A stretch of DNA of 64,000 bases from Altererythrobacter rubellus. GTDB taxonomy: Bacteria > Pseudomonadota > Alphaproteobacteria > Sphingomonadales > Sphingomonadaceae. This document shows positions 30,131 through 51,405 of the stretch, piece by piece. The stretch's first letter is position 1, and every line of letters begins with the position of its first letter. The translations under genes and the position numbers were made by a program. The notes under the pieces are model-generated. The model was not told where the DNA came from and made no database searches. It worked only from the letters and a program-made list of their open reading frames with translations. The DNA is taken from NCBI RefSeq assembly GCF_030284385.1, contig NZ_CP127221.1:1116001-1180000 (forward strand). Direction: 5' to 3'.

Positions 30131-30682
30131 TCAACTCGCCAACAGTTCTATACGTACTTCGCCCACTCCACGTCGGACCAGGCCGATTTCCTCTGCGGCG
30201 GCGCGGCTTAGGTCAATCACGCGATTAGGCGTGAAGGGACCGCGATCATTGATCCTGACGATAATGGATCGGCCGTTGCCGGTATTAGTGACAAGCACCA
30301 TGCTGCCAAAGGGAAGCGTCTTGTGCGCCGCAGTCATCGCCCGCATGTCAAATCGCTCTCCATTGGCAGTTCTTCGGCCGTGAAAGCGGCGCCCGTAGTA
30401 GGAAGCGTGACCGGTGCCGAGATCGCGTACGACATCACCGACGGCTGGCTCTTGTGGCGGTTCGATCTCAGAAATGTCGACGGCGTCGTAAGGATGGTCG
30501 TGCGGAGGGAGGGGGATGTCGAACTCGGAAAAGCCATCTTGGAAGCTCTGGTCTTCTTGCTGGGCTTCTGAATATCCGTCCTCGCCCGCATCCTGTCCTA
30601 CAACCGGCGGCGAAGCTATAGCGAGCAAGCTCACTATGAGGGCGCAGCAAATCCGCGCATGAAGATGGAAAGCCCTCTCCAT
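30131..30682 (-). CDS. rlpA: RlpA-like double-psi beta-barrel protein (septal lytic transglycosylase family)
   Basis: This 183-residue exported protein has a signal peptide in its first 30 residues ([18 protein letters not shown]), a Glu/Asp/Pro-rich spacer (about 31-85), then an RlpA domain: [46 protein letters not shown] with the conserved Asp, and [15 protein letters not shown]. There is no C-terminal SPOR domain, so it lacks the usual septal targeting module. RlpA proteins cleave glycan strands stripped of peptides. Start chosen at the ATG opening the signal peptide; the frame is open further upstream. Confidence 0.85.
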
Positions 30683-30824
30683 TCCGGAAGAATAGCCAAG
30701 CAGGGTAGCAATATGCAAATTTCCGCTGCGCAAGCCGGCGCTTGGGCGGCTGCATCGAGCGAAAGTTGTGCGAAATCTGCTTCCAGCTGCGTGCCCGGTA
30801 CGGGAAGAAGTCTGTACTCCAAGA

Positions 30825-31380
30825 ACCAAAAGCAAATGGGGCCGACATTGCTGCCGACCCCACTCTTACCGTCGCGTGGTCTTCTTGTCCGGCGAACCTT
30901 TCAAGAAGCGCTTGGCACTCGGTTTCTATCCCCTCCAACGGGTTGGAGGTTCTTTTCACCGACGCTCGCGTCGGCATCCGGTCTCGCCTTTCAACTCAGT
31001 CCTACCTGTCCGTGCCGAAGCCTTTTCAAGCGGTGCTGTGTCTTCCAACGCTACCGAGACCATTCCCCCTTCGCGATCACTTCCCTCAAACGGCTGGTTT
31101 CTGCCTCAGCTTCCACCTTCCTCGGTCCACAACCAGGTTCCTGGCCTATCCAGTGAATGTGCTTCGCGTTCTTCTCAGGCAACTGCACTTGCTTCCAGTT
31201 TGCACCTTCTGCATATCCAGTCTCGAAGTCCGCGTGGAAAAAATCCACTGCGTCGGTTTTTTGAGAAACTCTCGTGAAATCAACTCGTTGGAGCCAAATT
31301 TCCGGTTGGGTTTCTCTCCCTTCCGATGTTTCAAGACTGCGCCCTCGCAGTGAGTCGCGCAAGCTTTGCAACCCCGACTT
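30825..31380 (-). ncRNA. Candidate large structured RNA (unknown family)
   Basis: About 550 bases between rlpA and argG hold no convincing gene but many hairpins: ACTGCG/CGCAGT (31336-31351), CGC-GTGGA/TCCAC-GCG (31231-31252), CCAGG/CCTGG (31133-31144), CCGACGC/GCGTCGG (30959-30974) and CCTCCAAC/GTTGGAGG (30932-30949), plus a 7-bp long-range pair GGTCTCG (30980-30986) with CGAGACC (31055-31061). Reading the purine-rich minus strand, the block ends in a terminator-like stem at 30838-30861 followed by ATTTGCTTTT. All plus frames are open for hundreds of bases, but with poor codon bias. It does not look like RNase P RNA, tmRNA, SRP RNA or 6S RNA. It could instead be a long rlpA leader. Confidence 0.45.
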
Positions 31381-31421
31381 ATCCACTTTTCCTCAGATCA
31401 CCTGTGGACGCGCGTGGATAA
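31379..31421 (+). promoter_or_regulatory. Cluster of DnaA-box-like sites
   Basis: TTATCCACT (31379-31387) and, on the other strand, TTATCCACG (31413-31421) each match the DnaA box TTATCCACA at 8 of 9 positions, with a weaker third site (TGTGGACGC, 31403-31411). They lie in inverted orientation just past the argG stop and at the 5' edge of the candidate RNA. Binding is unproven. Confidence 0.4.
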
Positions 31422-31452
31422 CTCAACCATTCGTCGAAAATGTGTGTTAGCC

Positions 31453-32670
31453 TCAGGCGTGATCGCGTTTCGCAAGCAACTTGAGCCGTAAAGCGTTCAG
31501 CTTGATGAAGCCTTCAGCGTCTTTTTGATCGTAAGCGCCGGCATCGTCTTCGAAAGTGACGTGCGATTCGGAGTAGAGCGAGTTCGCGCTCTTACGTCCA
31601 ACTACGCCTGCAACACCTTTGTAGAGCTTCAGGCGAACCCTACCGCTGACTTTCTCCTGACTGTGGTCAATCGCCGCCTGCAGCATTTCGCGTTCAGGGG
31701 CGAACCAGAACCCGTTGTAGATCAGCTCTGCATATTTGGGCATCAGCTCATCCTTGAGATGGGCTGCCCCGCGATCAAGCGTGATCTGCTCGATCCCGCG
31801 ATGTGCGCGGGCATAAATCTCGCCGCCCGGAGTTTCATACATGCCGCGCGACTTCATCCCGACGAAACGGTTCTCGACCAGATCGAGCCGGCCAATGCCG
31901 TGCTTGCGACCTAGATCATTCAGCGCGGTCAGCAGCTCGGCAGGCGACATCGCTTCACCGTTTAGCGCCACTCCATCGCCGCGTTCGAAATCGATGGTGA
32001 TATATTCGGGTGTATCCGGCGCGCCCTCAGGGTTGTCGGTGCGCGAATAGACATAATCCGGCGTCTCTTCCCACGGGTCTTCCAGGACTTTGCCCTCAGA
32101 CGAGGTGTGGAGCAGGTTCGCATCGGTCGAGAACGGGCTCTCACCGCGCTTGTCTTTAGGCACGACGATCTGGTGCTTCTCCGCCCATTCGATCAGCGCG
32201 GTCCGGCTGGTCAGGTCCCACTCGCGCCAAGGCGCAATGACTTTGATGTCGGGGTCAAGCGCATATGCGCTCAGCTCGAAACGAACCTGATCATTGCCTT
32301 TGCCGGTTGCACCATGCGCTATCGCATCAGCGCCTGTCTCATGCGCAATTTCGACCAATCGTTTAGAGATCAGAGGTCGCGCAATGGAGGTGCCCAGCAG
32401 ATAGTCGCCTTCATAGCGTGCATTGGCGCGCATCATCGGGAATACGAAATCGCGAACGAATTCCTCGCGCAGATCTTCGATATAGATGTGCTTGTCCGGA
32501 ATGCCCATCGCACGCGCCTTGGTACGGGCAGGCTCGATCTCTTCACCTTGGCCGAGGTCGGCGGTGAATGTCACCACTTCGCAGCCGCGCTCTACCTCTA
32601 GCCATTTCGCGATGACCGAGGTGTCGAGACCTCCGGAATAGGCGAGAACAACACGTTTGATATCTGGCAT
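31453..32670 (-). CDS. argG: Argininosuccinate synthase
   Basis: This 405-residue enzyme joins citrulline and aspartate using ATP, the penultimate arginine step. The ATP-binding PP-loop [10 protein letters not shown] is at residues 9-18, with further family blocks [18 protein letters not shown] and [12 protein letters not shown]. The frame is open for 37 more codons upstream, but ATG 32670 ([14 protein letters not shown]) gives the standard length and has AGAGG ten bases upstream. argH, the next enzyme, lies 17 kb away, so the pathway is not clustered. Confidence 0.97.
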
Positions 32671-32835
32671 TCTTGGAAACCTCTTTTCAATCGCCGCGCG
32701 GCTAGCAGGAGCAAGGGGAAGGGGCAATGAAGAAGCGTGTTGCAAGGGTGTAGTCGAGCTTCGTGCGCTGCGAAAAATCATGGGAAATGAGTTAGAAGGT
32801 ACTATCTAACGACTTCAGAGGCGGGAGAAGCAGTG

Positions 32836-34413: not shown

Positions 34414-34489
34414 TGGTGCCGGCTGCAAGATTCGAACTCGCGGCCTGATGATTACAAATCAACTGCTCTACCAACTGAGCTAAGCCGGC
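34414..34489 (-). tRNA. tRNA-Thr (anticodon UGU)
   Basis: Reading the minus strand, acceptor GCCGGCT pairs with AGCCGGC, the D arm GCTC-AGTTGGTA-GAGC follows, the anticodon loop is TTTGTAA (anticodon TGT, Thr ACA codons), and the T arm contains GTTCGAATC. The discriminator A and the CCA end are encoded (34414-34416). One T-T mismatch is present in the anticodon stem. Confidence 0.96.
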
Positions 34490-51329: not shown

Positions 51330-51405
51330 TGGTGGGCGATGACAGGCTCGAACTGCCGACCCTCTCGGTGTAAACGAGATGCTCTACCAACTGAGCTAAT
51401 CGCCC
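51330..51405 (-). tRNA. tRNA-Val (anticodon UAC)
   Basis: On the minus strand, acceptor GGGCGAT pairs with ATCGCCC, D arm GCTC/GAGC, anticodon stem TCTCG/CGAGA with loop TTTACAC (anticodon TAC, Val GUA codons), and T arm with TTCGAGC. Discriminator A and CCA (51330-51332) are encoded. Confidence 0.96.

Follow-up and report, generated by a model that had tools for sequence, protein, structure and literature searches.

A predicted structured non-coding RNA gene of about 0.5 kb between argG and rlpA in Altererythrobacter rubellus, with a promoter that may follow the cell cycle

Large, deeply conserved, multi-domain non-coding RNAs are few in bacteria, and two of them, RNase P RNA and tmRNA, are central machines. 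In size range and multi-domain fold RNase P RNA and alpha-tmRNA are comparable to the RNA presented here, but both are located elsewhere in this genome: RNase P RNA class A (RF00010) at 2090399-2090797 and alpha-tmRNA (RF01849) at 981648-981991, and neither family gave a match in the block discussed below. Other RNAs to be compared are OLE, ROOL and GOLLD, families which presumably are included in Rfam, as presumably are the five alphaproteobacterial elements of an earlier report. In the parts of the literature drawn on here OLE, ROOL and GOLLD appear as large ornate bacterial ncRNAs, a description which also suits the present RNA. OLE is given there as an RNA of about 600 nt, found mostly in Bacillota, which works in a ribonucleoprotein (RNP) and has an unknown biochemical function, and it is still counted as an open problem among large bacterial ncRNAs.

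Two alphaproteobacterial RNAs come close with respect to the cell cycle. CcnA of Caulobacter crescentus is, in the part of the report used, an ncRNA linked to the master cell-cycle regulators; it is 182 nt long, is drawn beside the replication origin and targets the leaders of ctrA and gcrA (PMC8959179). This description sets it apart from our RNA, which is multi-domain and far from the presumed origin; placement by oriC and a size of about 180 nt are at variance with about 496 nt at 1147 kb of a 2.3-Mb genome, and CcnA was rejected as a candidate. EcpR1 of Sinorhizobium modulates the alphaproteobacterial cell cycle and is likewise set apart by its description, in the sections consulted, as a trans-acting small RNA (PMC4414408). 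GsrN is, from the excerpt at hand, a different sRNA (PMC5869019), and the five alphaproteobacterial elements mentioned above are known to us from a portion of the original report (PMC1273637). A literature search, conducted mostly outside subscription journals, did not bring up a description of the RNA among the matches listed; an earlier report is possible.

The DNA analysed, called the window in the following, is a stretch of 64,000 nt of the A. rubellus chromosome, and all coordinates of features from here on refer to it unless they are given in kb. Searched against Rfam 15 at gathering scores, the window gave no match in the block. Its matches elsewhere were the serC leader RF00517 (40014-40066, plus strand, 43.9 bits) and two minus-strand tRNAs (34417-34489 and 51333-51405). 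When 11 loci were searched at E<=5, three matches were returned, all of them far under the cut-offs and one of them overlapping the RNA. This overlapping match, to the snoRNA model sR28 in locus L004, scored 16.9 bits where the cut-off is 39 (E=3) and was taken as chance.

Position of the gene and fold of the RNA

The original prediction, which was based on the sequence alone, saw between argG and rlpA a hairpin-dense, gene-free block (30825-31380) that might give an undescribed minus-strand ncRNA of about 550 nt. The comparison with relatives agrees with the larger part of it: compensatory changes in the homologues exceed both shuffled and slid controls, no reading frame is conserved among the relatives, and Rfam 15 holds nothing that matches above chance. 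The size has to be corrected. The predicted gene is about 496 nt, starts at 31327 and ends at 30832 on the minus strand, and is followed by a U-rich tail reaching to about 30828; both ends are inferred, the 5' end from the position of the -10 hexamer and the 3' end from the terminator hairpin. The stretch 31330-31427 is promoter. The gene call is based on 95 elements from the genus and 34 from the family set, on covariation and on an asymmetry between G-U and A-C. Purines make up 61% of the RNA's minus strand. Upstream lies argG (31453-32781, minus strand, a listed reading frame) and downstream rlpA (30131-30682, minus strand), both named as in the earlier note; the rlpA start, ATG at 30682, was picked by eye, and the listed TTG start at 30835 falls inside the terminator of the RNA.

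By count the hairpin density is only mildly unusual. The block holds three stems of at least 6 bp (loop 3-10) where the shuffled mean is 0.85, seven of 200 shuffles reach three, and as many are present in 16 of the 115 stretches of equal size into which the window was divided for comparison; the folding energy compared with shuffles gives z values of -3.1 for the minus and -2.2 for the plus strand. The stem count alone is thus not decisive, and it is the comparative evidence which makes the observation real. Four of the five stems that had been called perfect are so: 30932-30949 (outer 8 bp, in a stretch of variable length), 30959-30974 (outer 7 bp, backed by the family comparison), 31133-31144 (outer 5 bp) and 31336-31351 (outer 6 bp), the last of which sits in the promoter and not in the RNA. 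The fifth, 31231-31252, is imperfect, with three outer pairs followed, by eye, by a bulge and five more pairs, and its arms pair elsewhere in the family fold. The 7-nt complement of 30980-30986 with 31055-31061 is exact and is backed by the family as part of a longer helix, and the terminator-like stem at 30838-30861, with four perfect outer pairs and a continuation past a G-U pair, belongs to a hairpin which the family also backs.

The family alignment consisted of 47 sequences, the 34 family elements and 13 of the 95 genus elements. RNAalifold gave it an energy of -150.5 and 47 pairs with a double Watson-Crick change, where ten shuffles of the columns gave -67 to -88 and 3-12 pairs; for the 95 genus sequences the values were -222.5 (shuffled -109 to -141) and 51 pairs (10-17), the structures in both cases coming from the same alignments as were used for counting the pairs. 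For the 3' half a structure was drawn up by hand and evaluated on 43 sequences, which are the 47 without L054, L075, L084 and L093. In it 95.1% of the cells are paired, and change on both sides is seen in 18 pairs and in 108 cells; column shuffles gave 88.5% paired, 11.7 pairs and 32 cells (sd 5.6), and sliding the structure by 1-3 columns gave 38-44% paired, 6-12 pairs and 15-43 cells.

It should be noted that the plus-strand fold also beats its shuffles (-123.3 and 36 pairs for the 47 sequences, -175.5 and 46 pairs for the genus), as a complement must, and the assignment of the strand therefore rests on the G-U argument. In the 47 sequences the minus strand has 518 G-U against 112 A-C cells, whereas the best plus-strand fold has 133 against 259; the genus set gives 1430/254 for the minus and 316/610 for the plus strand. 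Since G-U exceeds A-C on the minus strand only, this is taken as the strand of the RNA.

A protein gene was ruled out by the absence of a shared frame and by the indels, of which just 9% are multiples of three (pairs at least 80% identical). Among frames of at least 15 codons the most frequent shared combination of start and stop occurs in 31/95 elements on the RNA strand, where it lies in the box region upstream, and in 21/95 on the opposite strand. Two minus-strand ATG/GTG frames, 30468-30977 (169 codons) and 31051-31386 (111 codons), overlap much of the RNA and are liable to be annotated as hypothetical proteins; neither is common to most relatives. Compensatory changes beyond the controls and the lack of a conserved frame, both read from sequence comparison, make the block almost certainly a structured RNA gene.

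From its 5' end the minus-strand RNA starts with a domain (31253-31326) made up of a closing helix, 31326-31318/31260-31253, and a hairpin, 31294-31291/31286-31283; these have 77% and 83% of the cells paired, and a compensatory change seen in at least two sequences occurs in 4/7 and 3/4 of their pairs. The second domain (31150-31251) contains three nested helices, 31251-31244/31158-31150, 31234-31225/31174-31165 and 31206-31204/31199-31197, which are 81-93% paired and have compensatory change in 18 of 20 pairs. Between this domain and the third, at 31050-31150, the fold is poorly resolved; the stretch includes the hairpin 31133-31144 and receives long lineage-specific insertions. The third domain (30978-31057) is built from the helix 31057-31049/30986-30978, which contains the exact 7-nt complement, and the hairpin 31023-31020/31015-31012 (87-88% paired, compensatory change in 7 of 11 pairs). 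It is followed by the most conserved hairpin of the RNA, at 30958-30975, with a CGAG loop, nearly invariant and with 96-98% of the cells paired. The 3' domain (30868-30923) has a helix, 30923-30915/30875-30868, and an inner hairpin, 30908-30904/30885-30881; it is 87-91% paired, and all pairs of the inner hairpin show compensatory change. A terminator-type hairpin of 14 bp (30834-30865), 99.8-100% paired and then running into AUUUGCUUUU on the minus strand, closes the structure. Compensatory change is found in 6/14 of its pairs (4/14 under a stricter count), and in L145 and L148 the upper stem is a different one with a UUCG loop, the shape of the hairpin being retained.

The segments 30958-30975, 30923-30915 and 30875-30868 carry four strands, two like GCCGGCGC and two like GCGCCGGU, that are able to swap partners. 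On both large alignments RNAalifold prefers the swapped form, in which the CGAG hairpin gives up its 5' half to pairing with the 3' domain. The local hairpin and the 3'-domain helix agree, by eye, with lineage-specific changes, and the local form was used for the counts. A conformational switch by exchange of partners is possible.

Occurrence among relatives

A DNA search of 40 relatives and the genome itself found matches in 20 of the 41, all in one genus, with three relatives matching over nearly the full length and the rest chiefly at both ends; the matched loci adjoin argG. The 36 bases of the 3' end have a single match in each of 95 genomes out of the 114 of the genus (<=3 mismatches; reversed control 0), and carriers among the matches listed (80 of 119 stretches) bear the names Erythrobacter, Qipengyuania, Porphyrobacter, Altererythrobacter, Aurantiacibacter, Alteraurantiacibacter, Croceibacterium, Pelagerythrobacter, Parerythrobacter and Allopontixanthobacter. 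Genome G129 is without a match to this pattern, yet a covariance model finds the RNA in it, so that the genomes missed by the pattern are not all true absences. Measured from the predicted start, the RNA has a length of about 490-605 nt in the genus; in the family set the range is 413-584 nt.

Dereplication removed 35 of the 95 genus sequences, and from the 60 that were left a covariance model was built for the 3' domain. It found 157 of 397 family genomes, in 44 of 91 genera, at E<=1e-3, and 112 genomes at E<1e-8. The former threshold lets noise in, because some genomes (for instance G116 and G323) give a second weak match beside a strong one. A second model, built from 43 family sequences, found 130 of 397 genomes at E<=1e-6, in 35 of 89 genera; leaving out six matches with E from 1.4e-7 to 5.7e-7 reduces this to 124 genomes and 30 genera. 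The family search supplied 43 loci, of which nine (L120, L123, L124, L127-L130, L133 and L135) were dropped as belonging to the same genus or as near copies; all nine have argG and rlpA. Of the 34 that were kept, 33 come from 26 other genera and one, L141, from the same genus. Within the 3-4 kb of each that were available rlpA is found in 34/34 and argG in 33/34, and gene order had played no part in finding these loci. The gene is in single copy, downstream of argG and usually directly before rlpA, across much of the family (erythrobacters and their relatives).

Searching the class gave 21 of 387 genomes at E<=1e-3. Five are from the same family (E<=1.2e-17), and the 16 outside it (29-41 bits) are taken as noise. 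The weak matches of the family model at 29-41 bits in other alphaproteobacterial families (L199-L213) come from GC-rich genomes and are probably noise. Among 30 match-free genomes of other genera or families, rlpA was not found within about 1.5 kb in 26. In the remaining four it lies 336-447 nt past the end of the argG match and no trace of the RNA is seen. These four, L162, L163, L164 and L165, represent four genera with argG close to rlpA and apparently no RNA, from which it follows that the RNA is dispensable somewhere; they may reveal under what circumstances it can be spared. From the synteny we infer that this is an old single-copy gene of one family, vertically inherited and absent or lost in some branches.

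The promoter and its sites

Promoter and box counts cover the 129 elements (95 genus, 34 family) in a strict recount. A sigma70-type promoter is predicted on the minus strand, with the -35 hexamer TTGCGC at 31357-31362 and the -10 hexamer CAGTCT at 31334-31339. The corresponding pattern TTG-17-CANNNT occurs in 127/129 elements (95/95 genus, 32/34 family); the exceptions are L159, where the spacer is 18 bp, and L139, which has no such promoter at 17-bp spacing. On this pattern, and on the hairpin at the other end, promoter and terminator are very likely placed correctly.

Upstream, at about -95 to -50, three boxes are found: box 1, TTATCCAC, at 31414-31421 and box 2, TCCACA, at 31403-31408, both on the minus strand, and box 3, inverted, at 31379-31387, which reads AGTGGATAA on the minus strand. 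The three-box pattern is present in 125/129 elements and has identical spacing in 124, the outer boxes 1 and 3 being inverted relative to each other. The pair TTATCCAC-N3-8-TCCACA has one occurrence in the 2.3-Mb genome, and this is at the RNA gene. We take the boxes to resemble DnaA boxes, with the consensus TTATNCACA; two are TTATCCAC boxes and one is TCCACA, and none matches the full 9-mer TTNTNCACA. That DnaA controls the promoter has, on this likeness, about an even chance of being right.

The spacer of the promoter contains GACTC at 31352-31356, which matches GANTC, the site of CcrM methylation and of GcrA. A GANTC is found inside the core promoter in 96/129 elements (64/95 genus, 32/34 family) and is missing in 31/95 and 2/34; 94 of 127 strict promoters have it in the 29 nt that the -35 and -10 elements span, where 0.9%, 3.4% or 9.8% would be expected from the RNA body, the density in the window or equal bases, respectively. 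The density per start is 0.00038 in the RNA body (129 elements) and 0.0014 in the window, the promoter being enriched. There are two main positions for the site, 72 in 42 elements and 79 in 43, and hence it is retained although its position differs. The extended motif YGAKTCK, on either strand, is present in 32/34 family and 27/95 genus promoters and absent from 68/95. Methylated GANTC is bound by GcrA, and in Caulobacter promoters with YGAKTCK have been hypothesized to be activated by it, while Brevundimonas has no preference for an extended motif except a slight one for C before GANTC (PMC7987155, in the sections drawn on); GcrA brings RNA polymerase to methylated promoters (PMC7403470, likewise in part). 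A gcrA gene was found in the genome. Control of the promoter by GcrA/CcrM is, judging from the sites, fairly probable.

Alternative explanations and proposed role

The original prediction had offered a long rlpA leader as its other possibility, in which the RNA would be the 5' UTR of rlpA and the last hairpin an attenuator that governs read-through. An rlpA was found for 78 of the 129 elements, 51 being without one in the stretch examined. In 77 of the 78 loci it is downstream and has the orientation of the RNA, the distance being at most about 200 nt in 72 of them (a rough estimate), and the hairpin standing between RNA and rlpA is of the terminator type, all of which would suit a leader. This hairpin is nearly invariant, however, and rlpA is inverted in L154, where it is convergent to the RNA, and 305-832 nt away in four loci; to our knowledge the known leaders are also smaller and have fewer domains. 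The conserved terminator and the inverted or distant rlpA in some loci favour an RNA of its own and make the leader quite unlikely, while read-through into rlpA may occur in some species. An element acting as DNA, a DnaA titration site or a second origin whose inverted repeats merely look like RNA, could account for a box pair that occurs once in this genome and at this very spot. We consider it very improbable since the structured part does not include the boxes, G-U and A-C are asymmetric in favour of G-U, and the ends look like a promoter and a terminator. In addition the sampled GC skew, noisy as it is, changes sign from negative to positive at about 344-370 kb, not far from hemE (382 kb), and declines after about 1.4-1.5 Mb; with the RNA at 1147 kb a replication origin was rejected. 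Hardly credible is a CsrB-like sponge which would bind CsrA through many GGA motifs. GGA is above the shuffled mean in five of six copies (21 versus 15.5 in the window, 25 versus 15.7 in L119), but L158 has no excess (9 versus 9.4), and the sponge is unlikely because CsrA (PF02599) was not found in the genome.

The last alternative keeps the RNA gene and changes its control: the triple box would serve a regulator other than DnaA, GANTC would be there by some other constraint, and the product would be a housekeeping or stress RNA without cell-cycle timing. The rigid spacing, identical in 124 of the 129 elements, and the mutual inversion of the outer boxes are in line with such a regulator, as is the failure to find a matching cluster near the presumed origin, where a dense DnaA-box cluster was sought by pattern around hemE and the skew turn; the 31/95 genus promoters without GANTC fit a reading without cell-cycle timing. 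A GANTC in 96/129 core promoters, where 1-3% would be expected (9.8% if bases are equal), its retention at two alternative places and the extended GcrA motif in 32/34 family members speak against that reading, and we regard this alternative as somewhat unlikely.

The explanation we prefer, and hold to be probable on the strength of these comparisons, is a separate gene for a structured ncRNA of about 0.5 kb which would be timed with replication and the cell cycle and would act in trans, its most likely role being that of an RNP scaffold. The predicted sigma70-type promoter would drive the RNA and would be switched by DnaA on the three TTATCCAC-type boxes and by GcrA on the CcrM-methylated GANTC of the core promoter, and through this switching synthesis of the RNA would follow chromosome replication and the cell cycle. 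The intrinsic terminator would end the transcript, which is proposed to fold into a number of helical domains, the core almost invariant and the helices at the periphery differing in length. Base-pairing small RNAs usually conserve a single-stranded seed. A core that hardly varies, surrounded by helices that do, is closer to RNP or catalytic RNAs than to such sRNAs, and the RNA would most likely not be a simple antisense RNA; action in trans of the RNP type is by this analogy a proposal with even prospects. It is further possible, if doubtful, that the RNA is the first of a new class of large RNP or catalytic RNAs, made once per round of replication under the switches of DnaA and GcrA, and reporting or enforcing the progress of the cell cycle.

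The gene is single-copy and sharply bordered, its family includes many named strains, and its promoter suggests a control by DnaA and GcrA/CcrM that is testable. If confirmed, it would add a new class of RNA, the novelty being that of the RNA family, since large orphan RNAs are already known as a category, and it would give a direct handle on the question whether the alphaproteobacterial cell cycle is controlled with the help of a large structured RNA.
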